Part shown: piece by piece, positions 39,833 to 47,762 of the stretch
How positions within the stretch are numbered: position 1 is the first letter of the stretch
Layout of the letters: the number at the start of each line of letters is the position of its first letter
Translations under genes and position numbers: made by a program
Notes under the pieces: generated by a model
What the model was told of the DNA's origin: nothing
Database searches by the model: none
What the model saw: the letters and a program-made list of their open reading frames with translations, nothing else
Assembly: GCF_000685275.1 (NCBI RefSeq)
Contig: NZ_ARYK01000009.1
Span: forward strand, 1 to 64,000
Source of the DNA: Hyphomonas johnsonii MHS-2
GTDB taxonomy: Bacteria; Pseudomonadota; Alphaproteobacteria; Caulobacterales; Hyphomonadaceae
DNA length: 64,000 nucleotides
Reading direction: 5' to 3'

Positions 39833-39883
39833 CGCTAACGTCTCCGCTTGCCGAAACGGGCCAACCCCGGCAAGAACAGCGTC

Positions 39884-41266
39884 ATGACGGACACCGCCCC
39901 ACAGGCACCCCCGGCGCCCGACGCCGCAGAGATCGATGCCGCCCTCGTGGCGGACATCATCGATGCCGTTGCAGAGCGCGACACGAGGTGGCTGGCCCGG
40001 ACCCTGCAGCGCATGCACCCGGCCGACGCGGCGGATGCACTTGAACAGCTGCCCTATGACACGTTCGAAAAGGCCGTCGAACTGCTCGGTGGCGAACTGC
40101 CGCCCGACATCCTGATCGAACTGCGCGACGCCTATCGTGAAGGCGCGGTTGACGTCCTTCCGGACGCCGCCGTTGCCACTGCGCTGGACGAGCTGGATTC
40201 CGATGACGCGACGACCATCCTCGAAGATCTCGAAGATGCCCGCCGCGAACGCATCCTTGAAGACCTCGCACCGGTCGAACGGGCCCAGCTCGAACGCGGC
40301 CTGGCCTACGAGGAAGAGACCGCCGGCCGTCTCATGCAGACGGAATTCGTGGCGCTGCCCGAATTCTGGAGTGTCGGCCATGCCATCGACCATGCCCGGG
40401 CCCTCGGTGACGAATTGCCGGAAGTGTTCTACGAGGTCTACGTCACCGATCCGGGCCACAGGCTGATCGGTGTCGTCGCGCTCGCGACCCTGCTGCGCAC
40501 ACCGCGCGACGTGCTGCTGTCCGACATCATGGAAGACCCCATGTCGGACATCACCACCGACATGGACCAGGAAGAGGTCGCCTACGAATTCCAGAAATAC
40601 TCGCTGGCGTCGGCGCCGGTGAAGGACAGCGCCGGGCGGCTGGTCGGCATGATCACCGGCGATGACATGGTCGATGTCATCCAGTCGGAGAACACCGAAG
40701 ACCTGCTGTCACTGCTCAACGTGCGGTCGGCGGACGGTTCCGACACGGTATGGGACACGGTCAAGGCGCGCGCCCCCTGGCTGGGCGTCAACCTGTTCTC
40801 CGCCTTCATTGCTTCGGGGATCATTTCCATCTTCCAGGGCACGATCGAAAAGATCGTTGCGCTGGCCGTCCTGATGCCAGTCGTGGCGGCGCTGGGCGGC
40901 AATGCCGGCAGCCAGGGCCTCGCCGTGACGGTGCGGGCGATTGCCGAACGCCACCTCGATGGCGGCGCGGCCCGGCGCGCGGTGTTTCGTGAGGTCGCCA
41001 GCGGCCTTGTCAACGGCCTGATCTTTGCCGTGGGTGTCGGGGTGATCGCGCTGATCTGGTTCCGCCAGGTTGACCTGGCGCTGGTCATTGCGGCGTCAAT
41101 GCTCGCCACCTTCATCTGGGCCGGCTTCTCCGGAATCCTTGTTCCCCTCGGCCTGAAGCGCCTCGGCGCCGACCCGGCGGTGGCCTCGTCAGTATTCGTT
41201 CTGACATTGACCGACGTGATGGCATTCTTCAGCTTTCTCGGGCTCGCGTCGCTGGTTCTCCTGTAA
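39884..41266 (+). CDS. mgtE: Magnesium transporter MgtE
   Basis: A 460-residue homodimeric Mg2+ channel of the inner membrane. An N-terminal acidic helical domain (residues 30-130) contains RMHPADAADALEQLP and repeats. Two CBS domains (about 135-260) include LSDIMEDPMSDITTDMDQEE and GMITGDDMVDVI. The five-helix pore domain has the selectivity segment VVAALGGNAGSQGLAVTVRA near residue 345. The length suits the family (about 450). ATG 39884 is used; a TTG at 39848 would add 12 residues. Free Mg2+ bound between the cytosolic domains is known to close the channel in the family. Confidence 0.95.
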   Translation: MTDTAPQAPPAPDAAEIDAALVADIIDAVAERDTRWLARTLQRMHPADAADALEQLPYDTFEKAVELLGGELPPDILIELRDAYREGAVDVLPDAAVATALDELDSDDATTILEDLEDARRERILEDLAPVERAQLERGLAYEEETAGRLMQTEFVALPEFWSVGHAIDHARALGDELPEVFYEVYVTDPGHRLIGVVALATLLRTPRDVLLSDIMEDPMSDITTDMDQEEVAYEFQKYSLASAPVKDSAGRLVGMITGDDMVDVIQSENTEDLLSLLNVRSADGSDTVWDTVKARAPWLGVNLFSAFIASGIISIFQGTIEKIVALAVLMPVVAALGGNAGSQGLAVTVRAIAERHLDGGAARRAVFREVASGLVNGLIFAVGVGVIALIWFRQVDLALVIAASMLATFIWAGFSGILVPLGLKRLGADPAVASSVFVLTLTDVMAFFSFLGLASLVLL

Positions 41267-41306
41267 ACAGGGCGATTTTGGGCTGAATTTCGCGAGTCAG
41301 GCGAAC

Positions 41307-41322
41307 GGGCGCGCCATTTGCA
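41307..41322 (+). promoter_or_regulatory. Probable sigma-54 (-24/-12) promoter of spmX
   Basis: GGGCGCGCCATTTGCA matches the sigma-54 consensus TGGCACG-N4-TTGCA at all positions except the first and fifth. The diagnostic GG and GC are 10 bases apart. It lies 50 bases before the spmX start, leaving a short leader. In Caulobacter, spmX is activated by TacA, a sigma-54-dependent activator, which makes this placement meaningful. No TacA enhancer site was identified. Confidence 0.65.
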
Positions 41323-41372
41323 GTGTGCTCCGCTAGTAAAAGTCCAATTGTATCAATACGGGAGCCATCTGG

Positions 41373-42614
41373 ATGGCCCGGCCCATGCGAACATCCCGGA
41401 ACGGTCTCGAACTCATCAAGAGTTTCGAGGGTTTTCGCGCACGCGCGGCCCGGCTGCCGAATGGCCGCTGGATCATCGGATACAGCCATACGGCAACAGC
41501 GCGCAGGGGGCTGACCGTCAGCGCCGGCGACGCCGAACTGATCCTGCGCCATCATGACCTCCTGCCGGTTGAGCACCTGATCGCGGACCGCGTTCTGGCC
41601 CCGCTGAGCCAGAACGAGTTCGATGCGCTTGTCTCGTTTGTGTTCAATATCGGCGTTATGGCCTTCGTCGCATCGGATGTCCTAGCCCACCTGAACACCG
41701 GCGACCGGCTCCACGCCGCTGACGCCATGACCCTCTGGCGCAAGGGCAAGGTCGACAATGAACTGCGCGTGATCGACGCGCTGGTACGCCGTCGCGCCGC
41801 CGAGAAGGCGCTGTTCCTGGAGCATCCGTCAGGCCGGGCGGCCGTGGCCACCGCCCTCGTGACGCCCCAGCTTGACCTGGCCGCCGCCGTGATGCCGCCC
41901 CGTGAGCGCCCGGTCGTGGTCGAGACCCGCCTTGACGGCGACCTTGCACGCGCTGTCGAGGCTGAAACACCCGAAGCGCCCGGAACCTCGCCGCAGGCTG
42001 CTGCGCGCGCGGTGAACGAACGCCTGACCCGTATTCTGGGTGAGAATGCCCGGCTGGCCTCCGGACGGACCACACAAGCTGCCAATGACACGGCCGACAA
42101 TGACGGGCCAAGCATTGCCGAGATCACACGCGCTGTGTCCGCGCTCGCCGACCCCAACGGGACATCTGCCCCCTCTTCGGTGATCGATGTTGCCAAGGGC
42201 CCGCCGGAAGGCATCGAGCGCCGCCGGGCGCCGCGTGCGCCGGGCGGGGCCGATTTCGGCACGCCGCTGAATTTCGATGACGCTGCCCGTTCTGCCGGGC
42301 GGAGCGCGCTGGTTGACGACCTGGCCCCGGTCTCGATCAGCCAGGACGAGATCGACCGCACATTGGCGGAGAATGATGCCTTCCACGATGACACCATCTA
42401 TGAAGTGATGCGCGAGGGCTGGCCATTCGCGCTGCTCGCCGGAATCGGCTTCATCGGCTTCCTGACCGGCATCCAGCGTTTCTTCGATGCGGCACACACG
42501 CTGGTCGAGCGGACGTCCGATATCTATATCGGCCCGCTGCTTTCGCTCGGCAGCGCTGTCATCCTCGTGATTTCAGCCTACTACCTGATGCGTGTCCTCG
42601 CCCGGCGAACCTGA
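41373..42614 (+). CDS. spmX: SpmX-like stalked-pole muramidase-fold protein
   Basis: A 413-residue protein with the SpmX architecture. A GH24 lysozyme-fold domain lies at about 1-150 (LELIKSFEGFRARAARLPNG, GYSHTAT, VSFVFNIG). A long acidic, Pro/Ala-rich low-complexity region follows (about 160-345). Two C-terminal transmembrane helices are WPFALLAGIGFIGFLTGI and the stretch around LLSLGSAVILVISAYYL. In Caulobacter SpmX marks the stalked pole and recruits and activates the DivJ kinase. Catalytic Glu19 is kept, but the usual Thr of the TIGyGHT motif is Ile34 (IIGYSHT), so muramidase activity is doubtful. GGAG lies 9 bases upstream. A sigma-54 promoter precedes it. Confidence 0.85.
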   Translation: MARPMRTSRNGLELIKSFEGFRARAARLPNGRWIIGYSHTATARRGLTVSAGDAELILRHHDLLPVEHLIADRVLAPLSQNEFDALVSFVFNIGVMAFVASDVLAHLNTGDRLHAADAMTLWRKGKVDNELRVIDALVRRRAAEKALFLEHPSGRAAVATALVTPQLDLAAAVMPPRERPVVVETRLDGDLARAVEAETPEAPGTSPQAAARAVNERLTRILGENARLASGRTTQAANDTADNDGPSIAEITRAVSALADPNGTSAPSSVIDVAKGPPEGIERRRAPRAPGGADFGTPLNFDDAARSAGRSALVDDLAPVSISQDEIDRTLAENDAFHDDTIYEVMREGWPFALLAGIGFIGFLTGIQRFFDAAHTLVERTSDIYIGPLLSLGSAVILVISAYYLMRVLARRT

Positions 42615-43868: not shown

Positions 43869-45857
43869 CTAGCCGTGGCGGCGGCGTTCTTCGGGAGCGA
43901 CCTTGAGGTTCAGGCAATCGGCGATCACTGCGATCAGTGATCGCATGTCGATTGGCTTGGCGACGTAGCCGCTGAACCCTTTTGCGATGAACTTTTCCCG
44001 ATCGCCGCGCATGGAATCTGCGGTCAGGGCGACCACCGGGATATCGGCATTCATCCCGTCACTGGCGCGCAGGCGTTCAAAGGCCTTCTGGCCATCCAGC
44101 CCGGGCATGTGAACGTCCATCAGCACAAGGTCGTAGCGACTTTTTTCCAGTTTTTCGAGCGCAATCAGCCCGTTTGCGGCTTCGTCGGGTTCGAGCTGGT
44201 TCTGCTCCAGGAACGTCCAGGCCACCCGGCGGTTGATTTCATTGTCATCCACAATGAGGATTCTTGGAAGGCGGACCTTGGGTGCCGTGGTCTCGGTGGC
44301 TTTGCCGCGATCGACGCCGGAGATTGCCTTGACGTCGCCGGTGCCCACTGCCTGGCTGGCGGGTTCAGCATCGAATTTCAGTGTAAAGACTGTGCCGCGT
44401 CCGGGTTGGCTTACGACGGAAATGTCACCGCCCATCATGCGGGCGAGCTGGCGGGCGATTGGCAGGCCAAGGCCACTGCCGCCATACTTGCGGGTAGTCG
44501 ACCCGTCTGCCTGTGCAAAGGGCTCGAAAATGCGGTCCATCTTGTCTTCGGGAATGCCGCAGCCGGTATCCGACACGTGAACGGTGACCCGGATCCGGCC
44601 GTCCTGCTTGGGCCGTGCCGTGGCCGCGATCAGCACATTGCCCTTGGCCGTGAACTTGATGGCATTGGACACCAGGTTGCTGACGCACTGGCGCACGCGT
44701 ACCGGGTCTATCTTCAGGCGCGACGGGACACTCGGGTCAACGAACAGGTCGAGGCCGATGCCCTTTTCCGCAGCAATTGACGCATAGAGCTTGCGCGTGC
44801 CGTCCAGCCGGTGGCGCAGGTCCGTATCAATGGTGGAAATATCGAGCCGGCCGGCTTCGATCTTGGAAAGGTCGAGGATGTCGTTCAGGATCGACAGCAG
44901 ATTCTGGCCGGACTCCAGGATGATGTCGACCTGCTCGCTCTGGTCCTCACGGAGGTCGGCGTGCGACAGGACTTGCGCCATGCCGAGGATGCCGTTCAGC
45001 GGTGTACGGATCTCGTGGCTCATATTGGCCAGGAATTCCGACTTCAGGTTGGTTGCGTGCTCGGCCTTGCGCAGTGCGATCTCGAGTTCGCGGGCAGTCT
45101 CGCGCTCCTCGCGAACGTCACGGGCGTGCGAGATGAAGATGTGTTCCCCTCGCGCTTCGGACCAGGCGCAGGACAGCGCACTGGACACCAGCAGTTCCCG
45201 GCCGTCCTTGGTCAACACGTTACGGTCCTGAATGTCCTGCTTGATCGTGCCCTTGAACAGCTGCCGGCCGACTTTCATGGCCATGGCCTGATCTTCCGGA
45301 CACAGGATGACGGCAGTGCTTTTCCCGTGCAGCTCGCCGGGTTCATACCCAAGCAGTTTGTGGAGCGCATCGTTGGCATAGATGATTTCGCTGGTTTCAG
45401 TGCTCAGCGTAATCCCCTGCACGGCGTGGTTGAATGCGGTGCGGAACAATTCGTAGGAATCGCGTGCCGCGTCCCGCTCATGGGCGATTTCCGTGACTTC
45501 GGCCGAACAGACGATGCAATTGTCGCCGCGCGGCAGGATGGAATAGCGCACCACGGTGCCCTGCAGATGCTTGAGGCGCCCGTCGGGAGTCGGCCGCCGG
45601 CCGGTATTTGATATTTCCTGGCGGGTGCCAGATTCAATGCAGCGCACGGATGCCGCGAATATGTCTGAACTTCCATAGGCAGGGTCCAACTCGCATGCGC
45701 GCATGCCGACCATCGTTCCACCTTCAGGGAAGATGGTCCGCTCGGCGGTTTCATTGGCAGCAACCCACTCGAAATCGATGATCCTCCCCTCGGAATTCCG
45801 GATGGGGCTGAGCTCAACAATAGCAAATGGTAACAGGTCCAGGACTGCTGCATCCAT
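43869..45857 (-). CDS. PAS-containing hybrid sensor histidine kinase
   Basis: A 662-residue soluble two-component protein with no transmembrane segment or signal peptide. Order: PAS-like region (residues 1-120), a PAS domain (about 135-250) with TSEIIYANDALHKLLGYEPG, HisKA with the phosphoacceptor His281 in NMSHEIRTPLNG, a HATPase domain with DTGCGIPEDKMDRIFEPF and GGSGLGLPIA, and a C-terminal receiver with VLMDVHMPGLDG carrying the phospho-Asp. The signal and partner phosphotransferase are unknown. GGAGG 9 bases before 45857 decides the start. Confidence 0.93.
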   Translation of the reverse strand: MDAAVLDLLPFAIVELSPIRNSEGRIIDFEWVAANETAERTIFPEGGTMVGMRACELDPAYGSSDIFAASVRCIESGTRQEISNTGRRPTPDGRLKHLQGTVVRYSILPRGDNCIVCSAEVTEIAHERDAARDSYELFRTAFNHAVQGITLSTETSEIIYANDALHKLLGYEPGELHGKSTAVILCPEDQAMAMKVGRQLFKGTIKQDIQDRNVLTKDGRELLVSSALSCAWSEARGEHIFISHARDVREERETARELEIALRKAEHATNLKSEFLANMSHEIRTPLNGILGMAQVLSHADLREDQSEQVDIILESGQNLLSILNDILDLSKIEAGRLDISTIDTDLRHRLDGTRKLYASIAAEKGIGLDLFVDPSVPSRLKIDPVRVRQCVSNLVSNAIKFTAKGNVLIAATARPKQDGRIRVTVHVSDTGCGIPEDKMDRIFEPFAQADGSTTRKYGGSGLGLPIARQLARMMGGDISVVSQPGRGTVFTLKFDAEPASQAVGTGDVKAISGVDRGKATETTAPKVRLPRILIVDDNEINRRVAWTFLEQNQLEPDEAANGLIALEKLEKSRYDLVLMDVHMPGLDGQKAFERLRASDGMNADIPVVALTADSMRGDREKFIAKGFSGYVAKPIDMRSLIAVIADCLNLKVAPEERRRHG

Positions 45858-45965
45858 GGCGAATTTCCTCCAAGCCGGCCTGCGCGTCTTGGGGCGCACT
45901 TCCGGCTGCGCGATCTTGTGGTGATGTCGGTTAATGGAATGTTGAGATTCGCGCTGACGTAGACG

Positions 45966-47762
45966 TCAGGCAGGGCAACATTTTTCAAGGATATCACTGG
46001 TTTCCAGCGCCTTGATCGCCGCGTTGTAACCCGCTTCGACGGTGGCGTCGTAAGCTTCCCAGTCGCGCAGCTGGGTGTCGATCAGATCCGGCAGGATCAG
46101 GAGGTCGGTCATATCCCATCCGAATGTGCGGTCCGAACGGATGGTTGCGGTGCGCATCAGCAGGCCCGCGATTGGCGGCGCGGCCGAAAAGCCGTGTCCG
46201 AGCACCCAGCGGAAGAATCCCGGCGGGTTGATGAATTCTTCCACGTTCAGGCCTTCGGGCTGGCGGGTCACGTCGCACCCGACGACATAGCCGCGATGCA
46301 TGTCCCGCATCACGTCGACCGGGAAATTGTTCAGCACGGCACCGTCCACCAGAACATCATGGCCATCCACCACCGGCGGCAGGATGCCGGGCAGGGAGAT
46401 TGTCGCCCGCAGGGCTTCGCGCAGCAGGCCGGTCCGGTGCAACCGCAGCGTGCCGGAGGTAAGGTTCGTCGATGTCGCGAAGAACGGGATGTCCAGGTCG
46501 CACATTTCCGATTCGCCGAAATGTTCCTTCAGGCGGGCATTCACGCGCAGGCCCTTCACCATGCCCACGACCGGCAGCGTATAGTCGCCGAGCGGGTTGG
46601 TCTCGACAAAGGCCTTTCGGATGCGCCGGTCGATCTCGTCATCGTCCCAGCCCATTGCAACGCAGGCTGCGATGACTGCCCCCATGGACGACCCGCCCGC
46701 GAAATCGATGGGGACGCCTTTCTCCCGCAGGGCGCGGATCATGCCGATATGCGAGTAGGCCCGCGCGCCGCCGCCCGACATGACGACGCCCACCGACCGC
46801 CCGCACATGACCCGGGCCAGGCGGTCGCAGCTGACGCCCTGCACGCCTGTCCAGTGGAACACGCGGCTGGCACCGGACGCTTCCAGCCATTCGACCGGCC
46901 GTGCCGCCCGCCGCTCATTGCCATGGTGCAGCAACACCACGTCGACCAGCTTGAGCGCGTGGGCGGGCGAATCATTGTCTGCCATCAGCGGGTTTGACGG
47001 GCGTGCGTCGGCGCGCCCGACCACCCAGATCCGGTCGGCCTGGCGCGACGCCAGCCGATACCAGGAATTGTTGCCGATCGTGGCCACCAGGATCACCACG
47101 TCATGGGTCAGTTCGAGGTGATCAAAGAAGGTCGACGGTTTCTCGTCGCCCATCGCCTGGTCGACGATGGCGGTCGTCTTGCCGAGGACCTTGAGCGAAT
47201 CGCGCAACGCCCGGGCACGCAGGCCGAGGTCGATGGTCGGAGAGGTCCCGACCAGGGTAAACACCTTTGGCGCGGCCTGTGTCGAACGCTGGCCGGCCCG
47301 TCCGAGGCGTTTCAGGATGACCCTGATCATCGCTTCCAGCAGTTCCGGCTCGGCCTTGACCATGCGCTGCCAGCCCTTGCGCGAGATCGCGATCACTTCG
47401 GAATCGCGGATCGCATAGACAGACCCGGTATGGGGGGCATTTTCCGGTGCGCCGTCTTCGTCGACGTCAATTCCGCCCAGGAACAGCCCCATCTCGCCAA
47501 CCGGTTCGCCGGTACGGATATGGCCAATGAACTCGTTATGGCCGTCGCCACTCTTGCGGAAAGCGCCCAGCGTGCCGGACAGGACGAAAAAGATCGAATC
47601 AGCCGGCTCGTCCGCCTCGAACAGGATGCCGCCGGCTGGCAGGGAAAACCAGCGTGCTTCCTTGCCGGCGGCCTTCATGGCGCGGGCAGGTACATCCTTC
47701 AGGAACGGGATGTTCTTCAGGGTTGGCAGGACGTCCAGGCTCATGGGTTTGAACATGCCCAT
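45966..47762 (-). CDS. Patatin-like phospholipase with cyclic-nucleotide-binding domain (NTE-like)
   Basis: A 598-residue protein. An N-terminal cNMP-binding-like domain (about 20-155) with PAGGILFEADEPADSIFFVLSG is followed by a linker domain (165-300). A patatin lipase domain (320-500) then has the oxyanion loop GGGAR (330-334), nucleophile elbow GGSSMG with Ser359, and the catalytic Asp in VDGAVLNNFP. The layout resembles neuropathy-target-esterase-type lysophospholipases. Lipid substrate and nucleotide ligand are not determinable. It is divergent from mccB. Confidence 0.9.
   Translation of the reverse strand: MGMFKPMSLDVLPTLKNIPFLKDVPARAMKAAGKEARWFSLPAGGILFEADEPADSIFFVLSGTLGAFRKSGDGHNEFIGHIRTGEPVGEMGLFLGGIDVDEDGAPENAPHTGSVYAIRDSEVIAISRKGWQRMVKAEPELLEAMIRVILKRLGRAGQRSTQAAPKVFTLVGTSPTIDLGLRARALRDSLKVLGKTTAIVDQAMGDEKPSTFFDHLELTHDVVILVATIGNNSWYRLASRQADRIWVVGRADARPSNPLMADNDSPAHALKLVDVVLLHHGNERRAARPVEWLEASGASRVFHWTGVQGVSCDRLARVMCGRSVGVVMSGGGARAYSHIGMIRALREKGVPIDFAGGSSMGAVIAACVAMGWDDDEIDRRIRKAFVETNPLGDYTLPVVGMVKGLRVNARLKEHFGESEMCDLDIPFFATSTNLTSGTLRLHRTGLLREALRATISLPGILPPVVDGHDVLVDGAVLNNFPVDVMRDMHRGYVVGCDVTRQPEGLNVEEFINPPGFFRWVLGHGFSAAPPIAGLLMRTATIRSDRTFGWDMTDLLILPDLIDTQLRDWEAYDATVEAGYNAAIKALETSDILEKCCPA

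Follow-up and report, generated by a model that had tools for sequence, protein, structure and literature searches.

A probable sigma-54 promoter of spmX in Hyphomonas johnsonii and a conserved motif in its 5' leader

Is spmX of Hyphomonas johnsonii read from the same kind of sigma-54 promoter as in Caulobacter, and if so, which activator opens that promoter, and from where? The locus lies in the first 64,000 bases of one contig, hereafter the window, in a genome of 3.62 Mb and 18 contigs. In Caulobacter, spmX is a published target of TacA (PMC7010744), as the preliminary description of this DNA had stated, and in C. crescentus an RpoN motif, GGCNC-N4-CTTGC, stands at -26 of the primary spmX start determined by 5' RACE (PMC4287350). 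Start site, TacA dependence and timing of spmX are all published for Caulobacter. The features on which the first part of the argument turns are the following.

39848 to 41266, plus strand: mgtE, the conserved upstream neighbour, whose stop ends 40 bases before the -24/-12 element
41289 to 41305, plus strand: inverted repeat TTCGCG-AGTCA-GGCGAA directly before the -24 box, from the sequence and a count of its position
41307 to 41322, plus strand: sigma-54 -24/-12 element of spmX, GGGCGCGCCATTTGCA, from the sequence and its conserved position in spmX loci
41334 +/- 2, plus strand: predicted transcription start of spmX, placed by the motif at -26 in C. crescentus spmX
41373 to 42614, plus strand: spmX, 413 aa, with a lysozyme-like domain, two C-terminal hydrophobic stretches (by eye) and SpmX as its best NCBIfam match

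The -24/-12 element before spmX

The best NCBIfam match of the open reading frame at 41373-42614 is the SpmX model NF051871, with 206.7 bits against a cut-off of 700, and it is because of this best match, the lysozyme-like domain and the mgtE neighbour together that we take the frame as SpmX. A homologue of mgtE stands upstream of spmX in 40 of 41 Caulobacteraceae-type loci and in all 39 Hyphomonadaceae loci compared; the single locus lacking one has only 311 bases of upstream sequence, and two loci have mgtE at a distance of about 1 kb. Further along the window, a patatin-like phospholipase (45966-47762, minus strand) combines a cyclic-nucleotide-binding domain with an NTE-type P-loop-like stretch, and is adjoined by a hybrid kinase at 43869-45899.

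Within the element, the -24 GG occupies 41308-41309 and the -12 GC 41320-41321, with ten bases between them, and the ATG at 41373 follows the element after a gap of 50 bases; the spacing and distance given in the preliminary description are both correct in the sequence. Its term "near-consensus" is fair as well, since the element agrees with TGGCACGNNNNTTGCW at 10 of its 12 specified positions. Taken singly, however, the element does not rise above chance: with up to three mismatches, TGGCACGNNNNTTGCW has 85 matches in the window against 118 expected from shuffles, and 11 of these 85, the spmX element among them, have two mismatches. These figures favour a chance match, in which case spmX would be read from some other promoter or from mgtE. 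Since single-site statistics are not significant, they are not used here as evidence, and the weight rests on position and conservation.

SpmX was found in 98 of 105 Hyphomonadaceae genomes, and one spmX upstream region per genome was examined (n=98). A site agreeing with the consensus at 9 or more of 12 positions, starting at -70 to -48 from the start codon, is present in 86 of these loci, and the remaining 12 carry a site of 7 or 8 of 12 in the same place. As a control, 31 other stretches of 22 positions in the same loci gave counts of 0 to 4, except for one with 23, which covers the spmX start codon, where the conserved codons read TGGCCCG...ATGC. GG-N10-GC with TTGCA stands at the element's place in every one of the 98. 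Out of 80 further spmX loci, 39 were omitted as Hyphomonadaceae already sampled, many on identical contigs, and 41 were counted for the promoter, two of which (L163 and L165) carry Hyphomonadaceae in their title. Within this set, from Caulobacter, Phenylobacterium, Brevundimonas, Aquidulcibacter and relatives, GG-N10-GC is found in 40 loci, as in C. vibrioides with TGGCGCCGACCTTGCG, and is missing in L149 alone. Across 51 non-redundant segments, G2, G3, T12, T13, G14 and C15 are invariant, and the 26 spacer columns between the promoter and a second conserved motif, in the leader, average 0.15 bits. This shows that Caulobacter and the budding Hyphomonas share, at an unchanged place, the transcriptional switch of the polarity gene spmX, and by its sequence and position the Hyphomonas element is the predicted counterpart of the mapped C. 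crescentus spmX promoter. The presence of the site in all 98 family loci and in 40 of 41 others, like the start mapped in Caulobacter (PMC4287350), argues against a chance match, which we regard as extremely improbable.

The AGGSGAA block of the inverted repeat before the -24 box has the same position in 32 of 41 Hyphomonas loci, is one base off in 2 of 40 Caulobacteraceae-type loci, and is at that position in none of the 57 other Hyphomonadaceae. In 31 of 41 Hyphomonas loci a GANTC (CcrM-type) site was also seen no more than 45 bp ahead of the -24 box, mostly at -21 or -23; it was seen in 1 of the 57 other Hyphomonadaceae, and four control stretches in the Hyphomonas loci gave 0 to 7. In the window this GANTC lies at 41294-41298, a spot that differs from that of most Hyphomonas relatives. 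Methylation control of the spmX promoter through GANTC is possible.

TacA and the rest of the circuit

The genome holds one match to rpoN (E 1.5e-69) and eight to PF00158, four of them strong (E 1.3e-34 or better) and four weak (E 1.2e-6 or worse). We assume the latter to be other AAA proteins, and our census of activators rests on the four strong ones: a TacA-like protein (L002), PspF (L003), NtrX (L004) and an NtrC-like protein (L005). PspF and NtrX both exceed their own NCBIfam cut-offs, and none of the four strong matches reaches the cut-off of the FlbD model, though rpoN is present. L002, encoded on contig 3, is a protein of 521 aa with receiver, AAA and Fis-type HTH domains; it is 62% identical over its full length to its match in C. 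vibrioides OR37, the next best activator reaching 50% over the AAA part, and its recognition helix, GIGRSTLYRKVRE, is identical to that of Caulobacter TacA. It ends in Ala-Gly, the C-terminal ClpXP signal described for TacA (PMC7010744), while 6 of 11 other Hyphomonas TacA proteins examined end in Ala-Ser. On these comparisons L002 is the predicted TacA orthologue, and of the genes that the preliminary description had proposed to look for, both rpoN and tacA are accounted for. In the family, a TacA match at E <= 1e-60 was obtained in 104 of 105 genomes, with at least 68% identity for the best match in 100, four of these being partial. Five genomes have no orthologue-strength match (G001, G013, G025, G051 and G102), G013 and G102 being judged by the listed E-value alone.

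The sigma-54 activators of Caulobacter are listed as NtrC, NtrX, FlbD and TacA, with GAFTGA in FlbD and TacA only (PMC10274813). Among the four strong activators of H. johnsonii, GAFTGA occurs in L002 and PspF only, so that TacA is the sole GAFTGA-bearing sigma-54 activator common to both genomes, and by this elimination we infer that it is the activator of spmX here. Could PspF, or several activators, open a sigma-54-dependent promoter here instead? Its score above the NCBIfam cut-off and its GAFTGA would allow for this, but PspF is a membrane-stress activator with an HTH unlike that of TacA. Furthermore, it stands outside the activator list published for Caulobacter in PMC10274813, and yet Caulobacter has the same promoter; we consider a role for PspF very improbable. 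That the element is the spmX promoter for sigma-54 RNA polymerase, and that TacA opens it, is on the other hand highly probable.

Upstream of TacA, the 503-aa protein L016 (contig 7) has a 43% full-length match to one OR37 protein, its other OR37 matches covering the kinase core only. Pfam places DHp, CA and one receiver domain in it, and an alignment with Caulobacter rows adds the pseudo-receiver. L016 is, by this match, the putative ShkA orthologue, and a ShkA match at E <= 1e-62 was found in 101 of 105 family genomes. In Caulobacter ShkA, the DDR linker motif between the receiver domains holds the kinase inactive before c-di-GMP is bound, and changes in the motif free it from c-di-GMP (PMC7010744). 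All 3 Caulobacteraceae rows have this motif; the 30 Hyphomonadaceae proteins examined, ten of them from Hyphomonas, all lack it (a protein present twice in the alignment was counted once). H. johnsonii ShkA has EDE in its place. The tyrosine that we take as the c-di-GMP contact Y338 is retained in the rows of Ponticaulis and Hirschia and replaced by Trp in those of Hyphomonas and Henriciella. As the DDR motif is missing, the input to the relay may differ, and c-di-GMP may feed it differently in Hyphomonadaceae than in Caulobacter. ShkA of Hyphomonas and many relatives (L016, L347-L367) has Gly-Ala-Ala at its C-terminus, a possible ClpXP signal.

On the output side, L011 is a candidate DivJ by profile coverage only: its match spans positions 8-521 of the 531 in the DivJ model, with 204.9 bits, below the cut-off of 1000. 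L010 scores higher on this model (252.5 bits), through the kinase core alone. The earlier suggestion that the TacA-SpmX-DivJ circuit, or its control logic, is retained is therefore borne out for the promoter, rpoN and the predicted TacA and ShkA orthologues, but does not extend to the DDR motif of ShkA, and the divJ search proposed with it yields a candidate of nearly full coverage whose score stays under the DivJ cut-off. Neither G001 nor G013, small genomes of 2.2 and 2.5 Mb, yields a match to SpmX, to ShkA at E <= 1e-62 or to TacA at orthologue strength. The further absences (SpmX in 5 genomes, TacA in 3, ShkA in 2) do not coincide, and several of the assemblies are incomplete.

The leader motif and other possible targets

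Past the predicted start, a second block of conservation lies in the 5' leader.

41349 to 41366, plus strand: leader motif TGTATC-AATACG-GGAGCC, from logos and spacing in 138 loci

Outside Hyphomonas this motif is mostly an inverted repeat, TGTNYC-N5-GGNNCA, as in TGTCTC-AAACT-GGGTCA of Caulobacter and TGTCCC-AAACC-GGAGCA of Henriciella. Over the 138 loci, all 8 fixed positions of the dyad are matched in 61, 7 in 23, 6 in 52 (38 of these being Hyphomonas) and fewer in 2. In the 51 non-redundant segments the dyad carries, on average, about 1 bit in each column, as the promoter does, by a calculation whose dyad columns were shifted by one. In Hyphomonas, all 41 rows keep TGTNYCA and GGGA; the right half, GGGAGC or similar, is 1 bp out of register and overlaps the ribosome-binding GGAG, and by the dyad profile none of the 41 loci reaches the score of the other genera. 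In some Caulobacter and Phenylobacterium loci, L168 and L177 among them, the spacer also shows, by eye, a short inverted repeat before the dyad, for instance ACGCATCCGCGT or GGGCGCATGCGCCC.

The NtrC-type enhancer site has the consensus TGCACC-N5-GGTGCA. The leader dyad lies 27-30 bp past the -12 GC in 127 of the 138 loci, 26 in 2, 35 in 1 and 17-18 in 8, although its position was taken as the best match in a 26-position stretch with ties given to the usual distance, which somewhat favours a steady spacing. The simplest reading is that the motif would be a protein site tied to the promoter, with TacA as first candidate, and we infer that the stretch at 41349-41366 is, or derives from, the DNA site of the activator. 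A conserved enhancer upstream, which the preliminary description had proposed to seek in relatives, did not emerge: a profile scan from -330 to -20 gave no enrichment of sites of the leader-dyad type, and the activator-like motif is the one downstream of the start. The profile was trained on non-Hyphomonas leader dyads, which makes its counts in the leader circular, so that only the low counts elsewhere inform. Six of 40 Hyphomonas loci do score upstream, at -178 or -181, inside mgtE codons.

A bound protein at about +16 to +32, directly past the start, could also block the polymerase, and the motif might then be the operator of a repressor, or of TacA acting negatively, that ends the spmX burst. 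The tight spacing to the promoter, 27-30 bp in most loci, fits an operator equally; against it stand the NtrC-like shape, TG..YC-N5-GG..CA, and the fact that no spmX repressor was found in the open-licence literature. We hold an operator to be somewhat unlikely.

Alternatively, the motif may act in the RNA, as a hairpin or a translation signal near the ribosome-binding site. It overlaps GGAG in Hyphomonas and Henriciella, and the start codon follows it at a distance of 24-26 in all 41 Hyphomonas loci and of 17-25 in all 57 loci from other Hyphomonadaceae. The eight loci with 17-18 bp, all from the genus that holds Henriciella, bear on this directly. There the dyad is about 11 bp, or one helical turn, closer to the promoter, as a phased site would be, while its distance to the start codon is an unchanged 20-21; a leader element explains these loci as well as a phased site does, and this unchanged distance raised our estimate for an RNA element and lowered that for a downstream activator site. 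Conversely, pairs 3-15 and 4-14 do not covary, with 12 and 7 Watson-Crick pairs against 13.2 and 13.8 expected from shuffling. Moreover, GGGTCA of the Caulobacteraceae-type set is no ribosome-binding site, and in that set the dyad stands anywhere from 16 to 39 before the first in-frame start codon but, in 39 of 40 loci, 27-29 from the promoter. An RNA element is accordingly possible, but in our estimate unlikely.

Two kinds of scan were run for further sites. Exact GGCNCGNNNNTTGCA occurs 12 times in the H. johnsonii genome against 5 for the reversed control; spmX and a PilZ gene stood out among the 12, several others lying inside open frames. A similar consensus scan of C. vibrioides OR37 gave 136 places against 106 in the control, and among 30 of these 136 that were examined, the best dyad from -250 to +100 exceeded the 99% background level in one (L299), so that no TacA regulon is drawn from the consensus scan. 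The second scan, in 12 genomes, used a composite profile that joins the promoter to the leader motif and was trained on loci of spmX with this arrangement. Here spmX is the top match in 9 genomes and is missed in 3, and in H. johnsonii itself it reaches 28.1 bits with the next match at 11.2. Over all genomes the profile gave 34 matches. The 9 at spmX score from 16.2 to 29.4 bits and the remaining 25 reach up to 16.5 bits; the best of these others thus exceeds the weakest spmX, and the composite profile does not separate the two groups. Eight of the 25 were examined, and none is promoter-like in the manner of spmX except L257.

Two places deserve mention as observations. The PilZ gene encodes a PilZ-domain protein of 108 aa (contig 3, about 82105-82494, minus strand; L309 / L317), with a sigma-54-like GGCGCGCTATTTGCA 66 bases before its ATG. 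Of 30 Hyphomonas orthologues read, 29 carry GG-N10-GC with at least 8 of 12 positions in the 200 bp before the gene, at varying distance and as a count without control windows. The gene is possibly a second sigma-54 target; a leader dyad at this promoter was dropped as support, being found in only part of the loci and weak by profile. At L257, in Phenylobacterium haematophilum, a sigma-54-like GGTGCATCGCTTGCA is followed 27 bp past its GC by a full dyad, TGTACC-AGAAC-GGCACA, before an open frame (15.4 bits), and this place is possibly another target of the activator of the spmX promoter. A likeness of the gene that follows to the PilZ gene came down to five shared residues and was dropped.

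Proposed mechanism and comparison with known systems

In the mechanism that we propose, phosphorylated TacA, whose gene (L002) is on another contig, would open the spmX promoter for sigma-54 polymerase, SpmX would be produced as a burst when the swarmer cell becomes a stalked cell, and SpmX would then gather DivJ at the old pole. We further suggest, tentatively, that across the Caulobacterales TacA binds downstream of the spmX start, at +16 to +32, with a dyad phased by whole helical turns, and activates from inside the leader, and that in the Hyphomonadaceae this is joined to a ShkA without the c-di-GMP lock; this combined reading is possible, though we regard it as doubtful. If it is true, TacA bound in the leader may be cleared by, or may block, the very polymerase that it releases, and the same spmX promoter answers to a different input in Hyphomonadaceae. 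In the open-licence literature, which leaves out most subscription journals, we found no leader dyad, no TacA motif and no TacA control in Hyphomonas, and the leader motif provides a concrete candidate for the TacA site.

The nearest system by genus is the SpmX-DivJ module of Hyphomonas neptunium, where the foci of DivJ need SpmX and DivJ forms no distinct foci when SpmX is absent (PMC7200025). A term search of the main text of that paper did not return TacA, RpoN or ShkA, so that promoter control is not treated in that text.

With the C. crescentus spmX promoter, the present locus shares the gene, the neighbour mgtE and a -24/-12 element in the corresponding place, as well as rpoN, the TacA recognition helix and the distance of the leader motif from the -12 GC. 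The elements themselves read GGCNC-N4-CTTGC there (PMC4287350) and GGCGCG-N3-TTTGCA here. Hyphomonas differs in its imperfect leader dyad and in having a further palindrome ahead of the -24 box, and the H. johnsonii genome in a ShkA without DDR and in PspF but no FlbD among the activators found. Compared with an NtrC-type site, the leader dyad of most non-Hyphomonas loci has the same geometry, TG-N2-YC-N5-GG-N2-CA, but its place is past the start, at about +16 to +32, and its half-sites are TGTCYC and TGACCC rather than TGCACC.
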